From Streptomycetaceae bacterium (GTDB taxonomy: Bacteria; Actinomycetota; Actinomycetes; Nanopelagicales; Nanopelagicaceae): a stretch of 35,347 bases of DNA. The stretch spans positions 1 through 35,347 of the forward strand of contig JAIXTW010000007.1 of NCBI GenBank assembly GCA_027483765.1, in the 5' to 3' direction. Made by a program: the position numbers and the translations under genes. Below the pieces are notes generated by a model, which did not search any database, was not told the DNA's origin, and worked only from the letters and a program-made list of their open reading frames with translations. Positions 173-29,849 of the stretch are shown piece after piece (the stretch's first letter is position 1; each line of letters starts with the position of its first letter).

Positions 173-206
173 AAAAAACCCCGCCAGGTAACTGGCGGGG
201 TTTTTT
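173..206. terminator. Bidirectional intrinsic terminator
   Basis: A perfect stem (A-tract plus CCCCGCCAG, loop GTAA, CTGGCGGGG plus T-tract) has T runs on both strands. It terminates the histone-like gene from the left and the MarR gene from the right. The MarR stop codon (205-207 on the minus strand) lies inside its T-tract. Confidence 0.95.
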
Positions 207-687
207 ATTCCCGTGGAGGATTCTCTTTGAGTGATTGCGTAACGCGTTCAAATATTTCTGCTAATACCTTCTGATCATCTCGGGTTAAGTGATCAAGGAA
301 TCTAGTGCGAACACTTTCGACATGATCAGGTGCCGCCGCCACAATCGCTTTCCATCCCTTAGCCGTCATTACCGCAAAGAAGCCGCGCTTATCGTCGGGG
401 CAGGCCTCACGCTTTACCCAGCCCGCCTTCTCCATCACCTTGATGCGGTGAGAAAGGCGCGAGCGCGAAAGTAGTGCCACATCGGCCAGTTCGCTCATAC
501 GCATCCTGCGATCTGGGGCATCGCTGAGCGCGGCTAAAACTTCGTAATCAGCTATTGAGAGTTCGTGACTTTCTAAATCAAGGTCGAGTGATTCCAATAA
601 TCTGCGGCTAGCGATGATGTACCGGCGCCAAGCCTTCATTTCGGCAGGGTTTAACCAGCGCGGTGTTGTAACGTTTTGCCCTGTCAT
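205..687 (-). CDS. MarR-family transcriptional regulator
   Basis: This 160-aa protein has the usual MarR length and layout. Dimerisation helices lie at both ends, and a winged helix-turn-helix runs over about residues 60-110 (MSELADVALLSRSRLSHRI, then a wing with DDKRG). MarR proteins are dimeric repressors, often released by small aromatic ligands or oxidants. The gene is divergent from the M13 peptidase, and a 16-bp inverted repeat sits in between, so autoregulation and control of the peptidase are likely. The ATG at 687 has the hexamer TAGTAT 7 nt upstream on its strand, suggesting a leaderless mRNA. The ligand cannot be read from the sequence. Confidence 0.9.
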   Translation of the reverse strand: MTGQNVTTPRWLNPAEMKAWRRYIIASRRLLESLDLDLESHELSIADYEVLAALSDAPDRRMRMSELADVALLSRSRLSHRIKVMEKAGWVKREACPDDKRGFFAVMTAKGWKAIVAAAPDHVESVRTRFLDHLTRDDQKVLAEIFERVTQSLKENPPRE

Positions 688-5384: not shown

Positions 5385-6371
5385 TTACGCCTTGTTACCT
5401 GATTGTGGCTTTTCATTATGTCCACCAAATTTGTATCTCATCGCGCTCAGTACTCGATTGGCAAACTCATCATTGTTACGTGATGCAAAACGCGCATACA
5501 AGGAAGCGCTCAGCACATGTGCTGGAATTCCGGCCTCAATTGCTGCTTGTACTGTCCAACGACCTTCTCCACTATCACTGACCTGTGTCGAGTATTCGGT
5601 AAGTTCAGCGGACTCGACTAAAGCTTGCGCAGTGAGATCTAGTAGCCACGATGCCACAACACTTCCACGGCGCCAGACTTCAGTAATTGCTGGAATATCT
5701 AGCTCGTAAGCTGGATTCATCTCATCGGCTGCTTCAAAGATTGCAAGACCTTCGGCAAATGCGGCCATCATTCCGTACTCAATTCCGTTGTGAATCATCT
5801 TTACGAAGTGACCTGAACCCACAGGACCGCAATGCAAATATCCGTATTCGGCTTGTTCTGGTTCACCGGTGCGACCTGGTGTGCGGGGGGCTGATTCGAT
5901 TCCTGGGCAGAGCGCTTTGAAGATTGGATCAAGCGAAGCGACAACCGAATCATCGCCACCGATCATGAGTGAGTAACCGCGCTCTAGACCATACACGCCA
6001 CCGGATGTTCCAACGTCGACAAAGTTAATTCCTTGCGCCTTTAGCAATTCTGCGTTCTTGAGATCGTTCTTGTAATAACTATTTCCGCCATCAATAACTG
6101 TGTCACCGGGCTGGAGGTGTTTAGCCAGCTCAGCAATCGTGGAATCAGTTACTGCCGCCGGCACCATCACCCAGACTGTACGAGGAGTGGCAAGTTTGGA
6201 GGCGAAATCGGCCATATCAACAGAACCGACTGCACCCTCGGCAGCTAGCACTTTTACGGCATCGGGGCTGACATCAAAGACGGCAGAAGTGATTTCATGG
6301 CGAGCAAGGCGGCGAACAATATTTGCGCCCATGCGACCAAGGCCGATCATTCCAAAATTTGTGGTTGTCAT
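5385..6371 (-). CDS. gnd: 6-phosphogluconate dehydrogenase, decarboxylating (short GntZ/YqeC type)
   Basis: This 328-aa enzyme oxidatively decarboxylates 6-phosphogluconate to ribulose 5-phosphate. The N-terminal Rossmann motif GLGRMGANIVRRL (residues 8-20), the substrate loop GTSGGVYGLERGYSLMIGG, and the catalytic helix KMIHNGIEYGMM are all present. Its length fits the short form, about 300-330 aa, rather than the 470-aa E. coli type. Short forms are often NAD-dependent, but that is not shown here. It lies 63 nt downstream of pgl and directly before zwf. A weak TAGGCA hexamer lies 6 nt before the ATG and could be an internal promoter. Confidence 0.95.
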   Translation of the reverse strand: MTTTNFGMIGLGRMGANIVRRLARHEITSAVFDVSPDAVKVLAAEGAVGSVDMADFASKLATPRTVWVMVPAAVTDSTIAELAKHLQPGDTVIDGGNSYYKNDLKNAELLKAQGINFVDVGTSGGVYGLERGYSLMIGGDDSVVASLDPIFKALCPGIESAPRTPGRTGEPEQAEYGYLHCGPVGSGHFVKMIHNGIEYGMMAAFAEGLAIFEAADEMNPAYELDIPAITEVWRRGSVVASWLLDLTAQALVESAELTEYSTQVSDSGEGRWTVQAAIEAGIPAHVLSASLYARFASRNNDEFANRVLSAMRYKFGGHNEKPQSGNKA

Positions 6372-6434
6372 CTGTGATGCCTATTCGCTTGAAAACGCTC
6401 AACGCTGAGGCTCGTAGTCTATCCGAAGCTCTCC

Positions 6435-16029: not shown

Positions 16030-16713
16030 ATGGCGGGATTTAAAACGCAATGCGTGCAAGCGCTTACTGAGCAACTGCCGCGACTTGGTAATAAGAAGGT
16101 TGCATACGGGGCGCATGCCTATATGAAAGGCATCGCGCCTTTTCTTGGGGTACAGGCACCTGAACGTCGCAAACTCTTTAAAGAGATTTTTAAGACCTTG
16201 CCAATCCCTACATCAAATGAATTAGGACTTACCGCAAGAGCCCTCTGGAAATTACCAGAGCGCGAGTACCACTATGCCGCCTGCGATCTCATCGATTACT
16301 TCATTGATTGCGCCGATAAGAATTTCTTGGCAGATCATGTCGAATTCTTGATCACACAGAAATCATGGTGGGACACAATCGACACCTTGGGCTCTGTCGC
16401 CATCTCGCCATTGACTATCAAATATCCATCAGTAAAGCTGATGCGAAGTTGGAATAAGAGTTCAAATATGTGGCTCAACAGAGCTGCAATTCAACATCAG
16501 CGCGGTCGCAAATCTGAAACAGATATCGCCCTGCTCTTTGAATTCCTAGATGACCATGCTCATGAATCAGAGTTTTTTATCGCAAAGGCAATCGGTTGGG
16601 CGCTTCGCGATTTATCACGAATTGATAACAGGGCAGTTAAGAAATTCTTAGCAGATCATCCAGAGTTAAATCGAGTAGCGGTTCGCGAGGCGCTGAAATT
16701 AGGCTTCAAGTAA
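16030..16713 (+). CDS. AlkD-like DNA alkylation repair glycosylase
   Basis: This 227-aa HEAT-like repeat protein of the AlkD/AlkC family excises N3- and N7-alkylated purines without base flipping. Family blocks present are GVQAPERRKLFKEI near residues 38-51, REYHYAACDLIDYF, and WWDTIDTLGS with the active-site Trp/Asp. MWLNRAAIQHQ carries the conserved Arg, and FIAKAIGWALRDLSR follows. Length is normal. It is a single gene with its own leaderless-type promoter, unrelated to the iol operon that starts 76 nt later. Confidence 0.9.
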   Translation: MAGFKTQCVQALTEQLPRLGNKKVAYGAHAYMKGIAPFLGVQAPERRKLFKEIFKTLPIPTSNELGLTARALWKLPEREYHYAACDLIDYFIDCADKNFLADHVEFLITQKSWWDTIDTLGSVAISPLTIKYPSVKLMRSWNKSSNMWLNRAAIQHQRGRKSETDIALLFEFLDDHAHESEFFIAKAIGWALRDLSRIDNRAVKKFLADHPELNRVAVREALKLGFK

Positions 16714-24208: not shown

Positions 24209-25216
24209 ATGGCTAAGAAACTACGGTTCGCAATCATCGGCGCTGGTCGCATTGGATATGTCCATGCTGGCTCGGTTTACGATAACCCAGATGCGGAACT
24301 TGTTTATGTGGTCGATCCATTTGTCGAGTCTGCAACGAAAGTTGCCGCCGCATTTGGCGGAAAAGTTTCGAGTGACCCAGAAGCGGTCATCAACTCTGGT
24401 GAAATCGATGCTGTAATTATTGGCTCGCCTACCCCAACCCACGTACCACTTCTTGCAACTGCCATTAAAGCGGGCGTGCATGCCCTCTGCGAAAAGCCAA
24501 TCGATCTCGATATCGCTAATGTGGATTCACTGCGCCCTATCGCAAATGGCGCAAAAACAAATGTGACAATTGGTTTCAACCGTCGTCAAGACCCACAATT
24601 CAAAGCGGTTAAGGCTCGCGTTGATAAAGGTGAAATCGGAAAAGTTGAGCAAGTAGTCATCACGAGCCGCGACCCAGGACCTGCTCCACAGGCTTACATC
24701 GCAGTATCGGGTGGAATATTTAGAGATATGACGATTCATGATTTCGATATGGCTCGCTATTTTGTGCCAAACATTGTTGAAGTATCGGCAGTCGGCGCCA
24801 ACAGTTTCTGCGATTACATTAAAGAAGAGGACGACTTCGATAGCGTCAGCGTGATTCTCAAGGGTTCTGCAAACGAGATAGTAACAATCGTCAATTCGCG
24901 ACATTCAGCATACGGTTACGACCAGCGGCTAGAAGTCTTTGGTGACAAAGGAATGCTTCAAATCCGCAATCTGACAGATACGACTGTTCAATTGTTCTCT
25001 AAAGATGTTTCTGCGGCCGGCGAGCCATATATGGACTTCTTCCTAGAGCGTTACGCCGCTGCATATCGCAATGAATTAGCGCTCTTTATCGAAGGTATTG
25101 GCGCTGGAAAGAACTTAGGTTCTACCTACGACGATGGTCGCGCAGCACTAATCTTGGCCGATGCGGCACACGAATCTGCACGCACCGGCAAGGCGGTTCG
25201 AGTAAAACTCGACTAG
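24209..25216 (+). CDS. iolG: Inositol 2-dehydrogenase
   Basis: This 335-aa Gfo/Idh/MocA oxidoreductase oxidises myo-inositol to 2-keto-myo-inositol with NAD, the first step of the pathway. The Rossmann motif IIGAGRIGYVHA is at residues 9-20, and the catalytic triad candidates are K96 (EKPI), D173 and H177 (FRDMTIHDFD). ITSRDPGPAP is characteristic of IolG. It is the last gene of the operon. Its TAG stop shares CTAG with the stop of the convergent ABC ATPase, and no terminator lies between them. Ribosome binding site AGGA upstream. Confidence 0.9.
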   Translation: MAKKLRFAIIGAGRIGYVHAGSVYDNPDAELVYVVDPFVESATKVAAAFGGKVSSDPEAVINSGEIDAVIIGSPTPTHVPLLATAIKAGVHALCEKPIDLDIANVDSLRPIANGAKTNVTIGFNRRQDPQFKAVKARVDKGEIGKVEQVVITSRDPGPAPQAYIAVSGGIFRDMTIHDFDMARYFVPNIVEVSAVGANSFCDYIKEEDDFDSVSVILKGSANEIVTIVNSRHSAYGYDQRLEVFGDKGMLQIRNLTDTTVQLFSKDVSAAGEPYMDFFLERYAAAYRNELALFIEGIGAGKNLGSTYDDGRAALILADAAHESARTGKAVRVKLD

Positions 25217-26262
25217 GCGTTGGCAAAAAAGCGAATAGGTCCGCGGTGTTCGACCTTCACTAAATCCCCCACCGCAAAATCCATAGGACCAGCAACTCGG
25301 GCGCGAATAATTTCTGAGCTATCTGAAAGTTTTACCACCAACATCGCATCGTGGCCGTAATAATCTAACTGAATCAGAGTTCCAGCAACACCAGCTGCTG
25401 AACTTTTGGAAACCGAAATCTCTTCCGGGCGAATAACAACATAACCATTGTTAGTTGAGACGGCACCTGTTGGCGCGCTCAAGGTTGCAAGTGCATATGA
25501 GGTGCTTCCATCTTTAGCTTGGTGAGCGCTTAGTACTAATGCATCACCAGTGCTGACGGCTACAGAAGGTGAAATAGGTGATTCATAGACTTCTTCCGGT
25601 GATCCATACTGCGCAATCTTTCCATCTCGCATCAGAACGACTTTGTCGGACGAGACCAGCGCTTCTTCTCGATCGTGTGTTACCAAGATTGCTGTTGTGC
25701 CCTGAGCCCGCAGTAGTGCAACAACTTCTGAGCGAAGTTCATTTCGTAGCTCTGCATCGAGTGCCGAGAACGGTTCATCGAGCAGAACCATCTTTGGCTT
25801 AATGGCCAGAGCTCGAGCAAGAGCAACACGTGTTTGTTGACCACCAGAAAGTTCGGTAGGCATTTGATTCTCATAACCAGGCATGCCAATGAGTGCGAGC
25901 ATCTCAGAGATTGTCTTGGTGATTTCTGCTTGCGAGAATTCCTTCTTGCTAAGTCCGAAAGCAATATTCTGAGCAACGTTTAAATGTGGAAATAGGGCGC
26001 CTTGTTGCGGCACATACCCAGTGCGGCGTTTATTCGGTGGAAGTACAACCGATGAAAGTCCAACCAGTTGAGTTCCAAGTCGAATAGTTCCCTCGCGCGG
26101 TTGTAAGAGGCCCGCTATCGCTCGCAGCAAAGTTGTTTTCCCGCAACCAGATGGTCCAAGTAAGGATGCAATCTCTCCGGCTTGTAATGTGAATGAGAGA
26201 TCATTAATGACGGTGCGATCGCCGAAGTTGACGCTGAGATGAGAAACATCAAGTGAGGTCAC
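25213..26262 (-). CDS. Ferric-iron-type ABC transporter, ATP-binding protein
   Basis: This 349-aa ATPase is of the FbpC/PotA class. Walker A GPSGCGKTT is at residues 36-44, the signature ELSGGQQTRVALARAL at about 137-152, Walker B with DEPFSALDAELR near 162-173, and the switch His is in VTHDREEAL. A C-terminal TOBE-like domain follows from about residue 240 (VVIRPEEI near 275). It is the last gene of a three-gene operon with its fused permease and binding protein. The start overlaps the permease stop (ATGA). Iron is inferred from the partners. Confidence 0.9.
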   Translation of the reverse strand: MTSLDVSHLSVNFGDRTVINDLSFTLQAGEIASLLGPSGCGKTTLLRAIAGLLQPREGTIRLGTQLVGLSSVVLPPNKRRTGYVPQQGALFPHLNVAQNIAFGLSKKEFSQAEITKTISEMLALIGMPGYENQMPTELSGGQQTRVALARALAIKPKMVLLDEPFSALDAELRNELRSEVVALLRAQGTTAILVTHDREEALVSSDKVVLMRDGKIAQYGSPEEVYESPISPSVAVSTGDALVLSAHQAKDGSTSYALATLSAPTGAVSTNNGYVVIRPEEISVSKSSAAGVAGTLIQLDYYGHDAMLVVKLSDSSEIIRARVAGPMDFAVGDLVKVEHRGPIRFFANA

Positions 26263-27866
26263 ATCAGGCTCCCAACTCGTGTCTTAGTTCCATCTGCTTT
26301 AGATTCCCAATCTCCCCAAGGCAGGCTGAGAAGAAATGTTGGAATGGCTGCAATAAGAACTAAGAGTAAGGCGTAGGGGGCTGCATCATTAAATCGATTG
26401 ATTGCGGCATAGCTCCAGATCTGCGTTGCCAGCGTATCCATGCCAGTTGGGCGCAGCATGAGTGTTGCCGGAAGTTCTTTCATCGCTGTGAGAAAGACCA
26501 GGAGCGTACCTAGGCCAATGCTTGGAAGTGCGATCGGAATGACAACGGATGTAGTTACTTTGGTCTTGCTCTTTCCCAGGGTTGCCGCAACCTCTTTGAG
26601 AACTTGTGGCACCAGTTGCAGTGAGAAAGTCATTGAAGCTACCGCTTTTGCAAGGAAAAGTAGCGCGTATGCGAAAGCAAGGAGAAAAATTGATTGATAG
26701 ATGGGACCAAGTTTTGAACCAAGCGAGACCAGCGCCAGACCAATAACCACACCAGGTAGTGCATGGCCAATAAGAATGATTCGCTCTGAAACTCGTGAGA
26801 ATCTTCCGGCATGTGTAGCTATCAAAAAGCCGAGCGGGGCCGAGAAAAGAAGTGCGATAAGCGCACCAAGTGCTGAGACTGTAACTGTCGAGATAGCAGC
26901 ACTTGCTAGCCCAGAGATATCAAGTGGGTTTGGATTTCCAATAAATCTAGAAATCAATACATAGATGGGAAGAAATAGCGCCAGGGTTACATAAATACCA
27001 AGTGCAGAAATGAGTAAAGTCTTGAGGGATGCACTCTTGATTCGGGAGTCGTCAGTCGATAGTCGTTTAAAGACATTCTCTTTTGCTTTCTTATCTTTGA
27101 TTCTTTCATCAACCGAGATAAAGATAATGGAAGCCAGAATGAGCAGAAGAGAAATCACTGAGGCCGCGCCACGATCGTAGGAAGACTTAAACATATTTTG
27201 AATAGAGACCGTCAGTGTCTCAACATTAAGAAGAGAGACTGCTCCAAAATCACTGAGCACATAGAGTCCCGATAACAGGGCGCCAGCGCTGATGCTTCCT
27301 CGAATCTGTGGCAGAACTACTCGGAAGAAGATTTGAGTGCGTGTTAGTCCGAGGGTGCGAGCAACTTCAATAAACCCGCTATCAATTCGGCGAAGTGAGA
27401 CCAAAATTGCGAGCAGCATATAAGGCAAAGTTGTCAGAATTAATATGAAGGCAGCCGCGAATACTCCCGAGAGTGAAGGAATCAGCGCTAGCCAGGTGTA
27501 GGTGAAAACATAGGACGGAATCGCCAGCGGAAGTACAGCCGGCACAATGAGCAAATGCGCACGAGGCATGCGAACAAAGTGAATACCAGCAGCTATCAGC
27601 GTTCCAAGAAATATATTTACGATGACAACCATCGCCAACAAGGCAGTGGTTGTGCCCAGTACTTCAAGAGTCTTTCCCCGCAGCAGTAACTGAGCTATCT
27701 CAGGTAACGGCTTTTCGAAGGCGCGAATAATGAGGTAGATAAAGGGAATTAGAACAACGGCAAGGAGCAAGCCGACTAAGGCTAAGAGCGCTGGGTGAAT
27801 CGAAGCCGGTTCTCCACGTGAAGTGGAAAACCGGTGAGCGAGACCGTCCTTAACTCCTGTCGCCAT
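26259..27866 (-). CDS. Ferric-iron-type ABC transporter, fused two-domain permease
   Basis: This 535-aa permease has two tandem transmembrane domains and about 12 hydrophobic segments, as in FbpB/SfuB/CysW-fused iron permeases. Each half has an EAA-type coupling loop: IEVARTLGLTRTQIFFRVVLPQIRG in the first and LKEVAATLGKSKTKVTTSVVIPIALP in the second. Being a fusion, it needs no second permease gene. It lies between the binding-protein gene, 5 nt upstream, and the ATPase, which overlaps it by 4 nt. Confidence 0.9.
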   Translation of the reverse strand: MATGVKDGLAHRFSTSRGEPASIHPALLALVGLLLAVVLIPFIYLIIRAFEKPLPEIAQLLLRGKTLEVLGTTTALLAMVVIVNIFLGTLIAAGIHFVRMPRAHLLIVPAVLPLAIPSYVFTYTWLALIPSLSGVFAAAFILILTTLPYMLLAILVSLRRIDSGFIEVARTLGLTRTQIFFRVVLPQIRGSISAGALLSGLYVLSDFGAVSLLNVETLTVSIQNMFKSSYDRGAASVISLLLILASIIFISVDERIKDKKAKENVFKRLSTDDSRIKSASLKTLLISALGIYVTLALFLPIYVLISRFIGNPNPLDISGLASAAISTVTVSALGALIALLFSAPLGFLIATHAGRFSRVSERIILIGHALPGVVIGLALVSLGSKLGPIYQSIFLLAFAYALLFLAKAVASMTFSLQLVPQVLKEVAATLGKSKTKVTTSVVIPIALPSIGLGTLLVFLTAMKELPATLMLRPTGMDTLATQIWSYAAINRFNDAAPYALLLVLIAAIPTFLLSLPWGDWESKADGTKTRVGSLM

Positions 27867-27871
27867 AGGAA

Positions 27872-28894
27872 TTACAGCAATCCGACCTTCACCAAAAGAT
27901 CTTGTGTCTTTTGAATATCTTTAAGCGCGTTGAGATCCACTGATGGAGCTCCAATATCGGTAAGGACCGGTAGGCCAGCTGGAGCTTTGGCTCCATCAAT
28001 CAATGAGTACTCGTGTGTCTGGGCAACGAACTGATCTTGGGTCTTTTGTGATGTGAGAAAGTTGATTAACTCTTGCGCAGCCGCGTACTTCTTACTTGAT
28101 GTCAGCACTCCAGCTCCGGAGACGTTAATCATATTTCCAAGATCACCAGATTTGAAGAAACCATTTTTTACATTGATTTCTCTTCCGAGGCCTTCTGAAA
28201 CTTCCCAGATGTAATAGTGATTGACAAGCCCGATAGAAATCTCTTTCTTATCGATGGCTTCTACGATTGCGCTGTTCTTTGGATAGATACGCACATCATT
28301 CGCCTTGAGATCTTCCAACCACTTCTGGGCAAAGTCAGCGCCCTGCGCATTGATGAGCGCTGTTACAAATGCCTGGAATGAAGCGTTGCTTGGTGCAATT
28401 CCGAGTTTGCCCTTGTATGCAGCGTTACCAAGTTCGGTGACAGATGTTGGCAAAACTTTGAGTAAATCAGGGTTGTAAGCAAATACGCGAGCGCGACCGG
28501 TAACTCCTACCCAGTTTCGATTTGCTGCTACATATGTTGCGGGAATGCTCTCTGCGACATCATTCGGTAGCTCAATAAATAGATCTGCCTTGGCTACCGC
28601 ACCGAGTGAACCCGCATCCTGTGAAAGGAAGAGATCTGCTGGTGAATTAGCGCCCTCTTCTAAGATCTGGGCTGCAAGCTCTGCCGAATCTCCGTAACGA
28701 ACATTGAGCTTGATGCCTGCGGACTGTTCCCATTCAGCAAAGAATGGAGCGATAAATTCTTCCGAGCGACCTGAGTAGACAGTGAGTTCGGTGGCGTTGG
28801 CGACCTGTTCCTCAGAGCTGGAACAGCCCGTCATGAGGGATGCTGCAATGACTGCAGCAGTTGCGACAACGAGCGCTTTGAGCGACTTTTTCAC
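27872..28894 (-). CDS. Ferric-iron-type ABC transporter, substrate-binding lipoprotein
   Basis: This 340-aa protein has a lipoprotein signal peptide: basic MKKSLK, a hydrophobic run, and a lipobox ending at C24 (LMTGC). The mature part has the class II binding-protein pattern of FbpA/FutA (LTVYSGRSEEFIAPFFAEWEQ, LFLSQDAGSLGAVAKADLF). The adjacent Tyr pair in VNHYYIWEV matches the iron-coordinating tyrosines of that family. It captures ferric iron outside the membrane and hands it to the fused permease. The start codon is GTG, with AAGGGG 8 nt upstream. An operator-like palindrome overlaps its promoter. Confidence 0.9.
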   Translation of the reverse strand: MKKSLKALVVATAAVIAASLMTGCSSSEEQVANATELTVYSGRSEEFIAPFFAEWEQSAGIKLNVRYGDSAELAAQILEEGANSPADLFLSQDAGSLGAVAKADLFIELPNDVAESIPATYVAANRNWVGVTGRARVFAYNPDLLKVLPTSVTELGNAAYKGKLGIAPSNASFQAFVTALINAQGADFAQKWLEDLKANDVRIYPKNSAIVEAIDKKEISIGLVNHYYIWEVSEGLGREINVKNGFFKSGDLGNMINVSGAGVLTSSKKYAAAQELINFLTSQKTQDQFVAQTHEYSLIDGAKAPAGLPVLTDIGAPSVDLNALKDIQKTQDLLVKVGLL

Positions 28895-28951
28895 TGGTGA
28901 AACCCCTTATTTAGACCTCAGCTTGAGGGGCTATCTGCCCTCAGATGAGCG

Positions 28952-28980
28952 ACAGTAGTGGAGAATGGCGAAATACGCAA
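28952..28980 (-). promoter_or_regulatory. Promoter of the iron ABC transporter operon
   Basis: On the minus strand TTGCGT (28975-28980) and TACTGT (28952-28957) are exactly 17 bp apart. The leader of about 50 nt contains a small hairpin with arms CCTCA and TGAGG, near 28917-28929, before the ribosome binding site. Confidence 0.65.
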
Positions 28981-28995
28981 CATAAGTGTTGCGTA
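28974..28995. promoter_or_regulatory. 22-bp perfect inverted repeat, candidate shared operator
   Basis: Arms TACGCAACA and TGTTGCGTA (9 bp each) flank TAAG. The left arm contains the -35 box of the iron transporter promoter. The right arm lies just upstream of a possible heliorhodopsin promoter (TATATC at 29007-29012). It does not match the DtxR/IdeR or Fur consensus that I know, so the regulator is unidentified. Confidence 0.7.
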
Positions 28996-29054
28996 AATAC
29001 AAGGGGTATATCTTTGCCTCATTGCATAAATATTCAGCCTTAAGGAGAAGTTAC

Positions 29055-29849
29055 ATGTCATCAACAAGCACCGCAGTTGCAACCGGAGTAACTCCGGAAA
29101 AACTAGCCAACGTTCGCACATGGAATATCTCCCTCACTGTTTTGCACCTGGCTCAGGCTGTGGCGATGTTGCTGCTCACCAACGACTTCGCAATTAAGGT
29201 TTTGAATTCCTCACCCGACGGTCCCCCAGGCACTGAGGGTCTAGTGACAACAACTCTCTTTGAAGTTCGCATTGGTTGGGTGATTGCTGCATTTCTAGCG
29301 CTCGCTGGTTTAGATCACTTAATTACATCAACATTTGCCCGCAAGACATATGAAGCAGATCTCAAGAATGGAATCAACCGCTTCCGGTGGGCTGAATATT
29401 CCATAAGCGCATCTCTCATGGTTGCCGTCATCAGCATGTATTGGGGAATCTTGACCCTTTCCGCTTTAATCGCAGTTGTTGGTGCAAATATTGCAATGAT
29501 TCTCTTCGGTTGGTTACAAGAGAAGATGAATCCCCCAGGACGCACATCAACGACGATGATGCCATTCTGGTTTGGCACACTTGCTGGAATAGCACCTTGG
29601 CTCGCGATGGTGGCAAATATCTCGCAGGTCCCACTTGGTGAAGCTCCTGATGGACTTTTCCTAATCATGCTCGTTCAAGCAATTTTCTTCTTCTGCTTCG
29701 GCCTTAACCAATGGTTGCAATACCGAGGCATTGGAAAGTGGACTAGCTACATGTTTGGTGAGAAGACTTATTTGATCTTAAGTCTTGGTGCTAAATCGTT
29801 ATTGGCATGGCAGATCTTCGCGGTCTCACTTATTCCACTAACTAACTAG
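29055..29849 (+). CDS. Heliorhodopsin
   Basis: This 264-aa seven-helix retinal protein belongs to the heliorhodopsin family, which inserts with its N-terminus in the cytoplasm, opposite to type 1 rhodopsins. The retinal Schiff-base lysine is K247 in LGAKSLLAWQIF, and the counterion is E114 in RWAEYSISASLMVAVI. Two family histidines fall at H31 and H88. Heliorhodopsins show slow photocycles without ion pumping; a sensory or enzyme-regulating role has been proposed. The frame is open 23 codons upstream, but AAGGAGAAG (29042-29050) fixes the ATG at 29055. It is divergent from the iron transporter and shares its operator region. No retinal-synthesis gene is in the window. Confidence 0.95.
   Translation: MSSTSTAVATGVTPEKLANVRTWNISLTVLHLAQAVAMLLLTNDFAIKVLNSSPDGPPGTEGLVTTTLFEVRIGWVIAAFLALAGLDHLITSTFARKTYEADLKNGINRFRWAEYSISASLMVAVISMYWGILTLSALIAVVGANIAMILFGWLQEKMNPPGRTSTTMMPFWFGTLAGIAPWLAMVANISQVPLGEAPDGLFLIMLVQAIFFFCFGLNQWLQYRGIGKWTSYMFGEKTYLILSLGAKSLLAWQIFAVSLIPLTN

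Follow-up and report, generated by a model that had tools for sequence, protein, structure and literature searches.

Iron regulation usually falls to Fur, and the DtxR/IdeR iron box of actinobacteria has a consensus that resembles the 19-mer TTAGGTTAGGCTAACCTAA. In other bacteria, iron uptake is controlled by RirA and IscR, Fe-S regulators of the Rrf2 family. SufR is described as a regulator that is dedicated to the suf operon, and for Corynebacterium glutamicum these accounts give no other known targets (PMC8593673, PMC11995493). Its site in cyanobacteria and in Streptomyces avermitilis was reported to be CAAC-N6-GTTG (PMC8593673, PMC11995493). ChIP-seq of the Mycobacterium SufR gave sites at four other genes, none of which that account names as iron uptake, and the protein was shown to need three cysteines, C203, C216 and C244 (PMC6034842). 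A search of the open-licence literature gave no report of SufR controlling efeU or fbpA, nor of an iron regulator in the order to which our sequence belongs. The group that contains the genus studied here is abundant in lakes.

We analyzed a palindrome in a stretch of 35,347 nucleotides (the whole of it is called the window below) that lies between an iron transporter gene and a heliorhodopsin gene. The comparison of genomes suggests that this palindrome is a conserved DNA switch by which tiny freshwater actinobacteria control iron uptake, and that its most likely reader is the iron-sulfur-cluster sensor SufR. The operator goes with the iron genes and not with heliorhodopsin.

The operator and the putative fbpA promoter

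As originally described, the heliorhodopsin gene (ATG at 29055, plus strand) and the gene of an iron-binding protein (GTG at 28894, minus strand) diverge from a single gap of 160 bp (28895-29054). The latter gene, fbpA (27872-28894, minus strand), encodes the ferric-iron-binding protein of an ABC transporter and matches Pfam SBP_bac_6. Its best solved relative, 7w3w (E 3e-67), is the iron-binding protein of a ferric iron ABC transporter and its best solved hits are ferric-binding proteins; no NCBIfam model scored above cut-off for this product. The protein has NHYY at residue 225, and its tyrosine pair, a feature of FbpA ferric-binding proteins, was found in 18 matches over 20 loci. The transporter is completed by the permease gene fbpB (26259-27866, minus strand; Pfam BPD_transp_1 in two stretches) and the ATPase gene fbpC (25213-26262, minus strand; Pfam ABC_tran and TOBE_2). 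The divergent neighbour (29055-29849, plus strand), probably no target of the operator, encodes a heliorhodopsin with 291.5 bits to Pfam Heliorhodopsin and 248 bits to NCBIfam HeR (cut-off 100). At the other end of the window there is a terminator-like inverted repeat (171-208) with 17-bp arms and runs of A and T at its flanks, which adjoins a MarR-family gene (205-687, minus strand).

The palindrome, TACGCAACA-TAAG-TGTTGCGTA (28974-28995), had been called perfect over 22 bp; it is real, yet its centre is imperfect, with a non-palindromic 4-nt spacer between 9-bp arms. It is the inner part of a longer, 30-bp operator, GAAATACGCAAC-ATAAGT-GTTGCGTAAATA (28970-28999), for which we propose a SufR type. 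The family consensus, GAWTTACGCAAC-N6-GTTGCGTAAWTC, was derived from 68 unique iron-gene sites. In agreement with the original prediction, the palindrome fits no DtxR/IdeR box and no classical Fur box, and it covers the putative -35 box of the iron transporter. This box, TTGCGT (28975-28980, minus strand), lies inside the gene-side arm of the operator and is followed after 17 bp by a putative -10 box, TACTGT (28952-28957, minus strand), which in the nearest fbpA relative (G070) reads TACAGT at equal spacing. A sigma-70 consensus scan called no promoter in the gap, and both boxes are deduced from the sequence and from a spacing pattern that fbpA promoters have in common with those of efeU, the gene of a permease that is unrelated to FbpA. 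Counting exact-core sites only, with duplicates removed, TTGCGT with TANNNT at 17 or 18 bp was found in 32/33 fbpA and 108/110 efeU promoters; neither set has it on the other side of the operator (0/33 and 0/110). The efeU start is placed 29 or 30 bp past the core in 102 of the 110, and therefore the efeU mRNA would be leaderless.

Conservation at iron importer genes

Of the 296 genomes that represent the order, 227 have the exact core of the operator, ACGCAAC-N6-GTTGCGT (85 of the 108 good genomes and 13 of 17 genera), and the other 69 lack it (23 of the good ones). Because of this conservation the palindrome can be placed beyond chance. The core is nearly always present as a single copy per genome, with two copies in G064, G084 and G193, and the reversed control pattern occurred only in G039 among the genomes listed. 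Within the genus, a search with a 16-letter pattern with ACGCAACA arms and up to 2 mismatches found the core in 125 of 135 genomes and in all 44 good ones.

By looking at the genes next to these sites it can be seen that the operator is constant while the importer gene varies. Thirty pattern-found loci of the genus comprise 28 at efeU, one at fbpA and one at neither (L087, with 2 mismatches), and 30 loci from other genera comprise 23 at efeU, six at fbpA and one at a contig end. The extended site occurs in exact form at least 120 times in named genomes, and among the matches listed 85 are at efeU, 23 at fbpA and 12 elsewhere. In the loci inspected, the importer next to the operator is efeU in most relatives and fbpA in the window. 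For one efeU locus (L062) the assignment is given by NCBIfam EfeU with 323.8 bits against a cut-off of 255. The two importers replace each other: 19 of 21 genomes with fbpA are without efeU, which is present in 104 of 114 other genomes. In four loci (L042, L044, L045 and L046) fbpA adjoins a thiolase gene, as efeU does in L062, and this common neighbour points to an exchange of importers at an operator that stayed in place. The gene opposite fbpA varies between genomes.

The 12 exact sites away from efeU and fbpA among the matches listed are mixed. Four are at transport genes, namely an ABC-transporter ATPase (L176), a periplasmic binding protein of siderophore type (L188), FecCD (L215) and FeoB (L243); a fifth locus (L185) is truncated where its contig stops and has a neighbour as at the fbpA locus L035; a sixth is L247; and the remaining six (L175, L212, L231, L232, L245 and L276) have no iron gene and were taken as chance. 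Recurrent sites with 2 mismatches within a cytochrome oxidase reading frame (L154, L155 and L156) and one inside a gene (L157) were rejected. In a sample of the class, a match with at most one mismatch was found in 51 of 394 genomes: 40 in this order, eight in the genus g53 and three others, of which G428 has its site next to an EfeU-like gene and the remaining two look like chance. The eight g53 genomes (L317-L324) all have an asymmetric one-mismatch site beside an oxidoreductase-like ORF. Five lake MAGs titled Bifidobacterium breve (L195, L219, L226, L234 and L240) contain the operator of this order, which in L219 at any rate stands at fbpA; their titles are probably wrong.

SufR as the probable regulator

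The core in the window, CAAC-ATAAGT-GTTG, fits the published SufR core. In this genome a SufR-like gene heads a sufR-B-D-C-S-U operon; at L112 sufR is followed by SufB-, SufD-, SufC-, cysteine desulfurase- and SufU-like ORFs, which were named by eye from the sequence. In the same locus (6290-6390) sufR and a ctaA-like ORF are divergent, with less than 100 bp between their inferred starts. Of 40 loci caught by the search pattern, which missed L313, 39 encode a SufR-like protein with the motif Cys-X3-Cys-X12-Cys-X27-Cys, and its Cys-X12-Cys-X27-Cys part has the spacing of C203, C216 and C244 as reported for the Mycobacterium SufR (PMC6034842). The protein scored 76.6 bits to NCBIfam TIGR02702, the cyanobacterial equivalog, with a cut-off of 178.8, and it is therefore called SufR-like and placed outside that equivalog; none of 61 genomes reached the TIGR02702 cut-off, and searches with the protein gave neither a Pfam match nor a relative of solved structure.

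A diverged copy of the operator is found at the sufR start. A scoring matrix built solely from the 68 iron-operator sites was run over 677,601 other windows, and only 24 scored above zero: seven variants of the iron site, 16 sufR starts and one intragenic window (1.5 bits). All 16 sufR loci, in 14 genomes, were between 1.7 and 16.9 bits, the next window being at -7.5; the sufR start was thus picked out in 14/14 genomes of the genus, with low scores in two (5.2 and 1.7 bits). In the genus of the window the sufR site has ACAC, not CAAC, in its left half. In the sister genera g2 and g5 a site is present at the sufR start in 20/20 loci, with the form TTACGCAAC-N6-GTTGTG in g2 (19 loci) and the ACAC form in g5 (L308). 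Across the order, the sufR-site pattern, allowing up to 2 mismatches, matched 180/296 genomes and, in the genus g9, 0/25. These counts spoke against a SufR regulator, and for this reason 200 kb of one g9 genome (G202) was scored by the matrix; there the best window is the sufR start with 20.9 bits, followed by -1.9. The sufR operator of L112 overlaps the GTG start, and so sufR may be leaderless. In five other actinobacteria that carry the exact operator (Arthrobacter twice, Timonella, Demequina and a Promicromonosporaceae) a site with 5-6 mismatches of 18 is placed upstream of sufR in 5/5, which is mild support because 106 of 1976 random windows match equally well. The site upstream of sufR in L309 looks like chance.

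Based on these data, we consider it likely that the palindrome belongs to the operator of the iron-uptake promoter, and that it is bound by the Fe-S repressor SufR, which would repress iron uptake together with its own suf operon. The sequence itself shows the operator, its position over the putative -35 box, its conservation next to importer genes and its diverged copy at sufR; SufR as the binding protein, repression as its mode of action and the signal that it would sense in this organism are inferences. When iron and Fe-S clusters are ample, holo-SufR would occupy the operator and mask the importer's -35 box, in front of fbpABC in this genome and of efeU in most of its relatives. It would also occupy the sufR start, so that iron import and cluster assembly would both be held down. 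When clusters are scarce or damaged, SufR would release the DNA and both the importer and the suf operon would be made.

Alternative readings and known systems

The original prediction held that one regulator could control heliorhodopsin and iron uptake together, and asked whether the palindrome is conserved in relatives. Conservation was confirmed upstream of fbpA, where the operator is present at 19 of 19 other loci (15 exact and four with one mismatch; L050, which has no upstream DNA, is not counted), whereas upstream of heliorhodopsin it failed, since with up to two mismatches the operator is absent from all 29 other heliorhodopsin loci examined. Joint control is not supported by these counts. 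In L009, one of the heliorhodopsin loci, a site with 3 mismatches lies some 1.4 kb downstream of heliorhodopsin. The divergent pair was not found in any other genome searched; in 17 other genomes of the genus with both genes these are never on the same contig, as judged from draft genomes, and the heliorhodopsins nearest in sequence, three with 86-88% identity, are flanked by other genes and lack the operator. Of the two sides of the operator, the iron side alone has a putative -10 box with a spacing of 17-18 bp. We therefore reject heliorhodopsin as a target of the operator; it is probably a chance neighbour of the operator in this genome. The tempting link between light and iron is left unsupported, because the pair was not found in another genome and no operator accompanies the most similar heliorhodopsins. 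One may still suggest that in this single species heliorhodopsin was captured by the operator, so that SufR would also control a light-sensing protein. The end of the operator is 55 bp ahead of the heliorhodopsin ATG, and the sole nearby TANNNT (29009-29014) would place a -35 region on the operator, where a bound repressor could block it. However, this candidate -10 box is at 14 bp from TTGCGT rather than at 17-18, and, as no other genome was found with the pair and no operator is present at the most similar heliorhodopsins, such a capture is quite unlikely. Several other features were seen around heliorhodopsin genes. Four genomes, that of the window (29055-29849) and those of L003, L004 and L005, share a divergent heliorhodopsin, with at most 49% identity to other heliorhodopsins, in place of the common one. 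At L118 and L120 (G131 and G006) the heliorhodopsin gene directly follows a glutamine-synthetase-like ORF, and a gene of the Fur family, 3-5 kb away, overlaps one for a ZIP zinc transporter. A Fur-type gene at this distance occurs in many relatives; a regulatory link was rejected, and the gene is a probable Zur because it adjoins the zinc transporter. A window gene (16030-16713) with a weak likeness (22% identity) to the neighbour of heliorhodopsin in relatives led nowhere.

The main rival hypothesis is that the operator is read by a different regulator, most plausibly the Fur-family protein encoded beside YgfZ (G000:C8:138775-139107), which would control iron uptake and suf. Fur-family proteins scored above cut-off in 49/61 genomes and in 19 of 20 good ones, this genome included, and Fur was reported to control suf in Escherichia coli (PMC6034842). 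Yet the site contains G and C, has 12-bp half-sites around an N6 centre and agrees in core and spacing with the SufR site from the literature; a 12-kb region around the fur-like gene (L113) gave no operator-like window; and the second Fur type of the genus, not seen in G000, adjoins a ZIP zinc transporter, which points to Zur. We find a Fur-type reader unlikely on these grounds. DtxR/IdeR was rejected as the regulator, with none above cut-off in 61 genomes (weak hits in eight) compared with 12 of 14 control genomes above it. Boxes resembling the DtxR consensus, with up to 6 mismatches, were near 1 of 75 operators of the order, which is like the frequency in random windows (8 of 400). As for a palindrome that arose by chance, or a transcription-terminator hairpin, in either case without regulatory meaning, the bare repeat is only mildly unusual: when the 160-bp gap was simulated 3000 times by a first-order Markov model, 21 versions contained an inverted repeat whose arms were 9 bp or longer and no more than 10 apart, and the window has 4 such repeats compared with 0-6 in 8 Markov versions of it. 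Against this origin are its conservation at iron genes across the order, its fixed promoter geometry, the lack of a T-run and a search for terminator-like sites that gave none there, so that we hold such an origin to be practically negligible.

A SufR-type operator may also be placed in the history of the group. In the five other actinobacteria at least four of the operators are at transporter genes, with three clear iron families (PF01497, PF01032 and PF02421), and a DtxR-like box with up to 6 mismatches is near the exact operator in 4/5, a count from which L214 and L283, where such a box is visible by eye, were excluded. Since the operator stands beside a DtxR box in four of these five Micrococcales-type loci, dual control by SufR and DtxR would have come first. 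It may equally well be right or wrong that the whole order of streamlined freshwater actinobacteria then lost DtxR/IdeR and controls iron uptake by SufR alone, with sufR-suf and a single iron importer as the only kinds of target promoter.

Compared with known systems, the DtxR/IdeR box has the same job as this operator, the repression of iron uptake, and a different sequence. RirA and IscR are alike in that Fe-S status controls iron uptake, whereas the regulator proposed here, SufR, is unrelated to them and its operator is different. A SufR operator at the importer would explain how iron is sensed in the genus and would extend the role of SufR beyond the suf operon. The core and spacing of the window site are identical to those of the SufR operator as reported for cyanobacteria and S. 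avermitilis, and the sufR site here overlaps the start and the -10 region as described for S. avermitilis; in contrast to the published operator, the one studied here is longer, with 12-bp half-sites, and is found at iron importers, over the putative -35 box (PMC8593673, PMC11995493).
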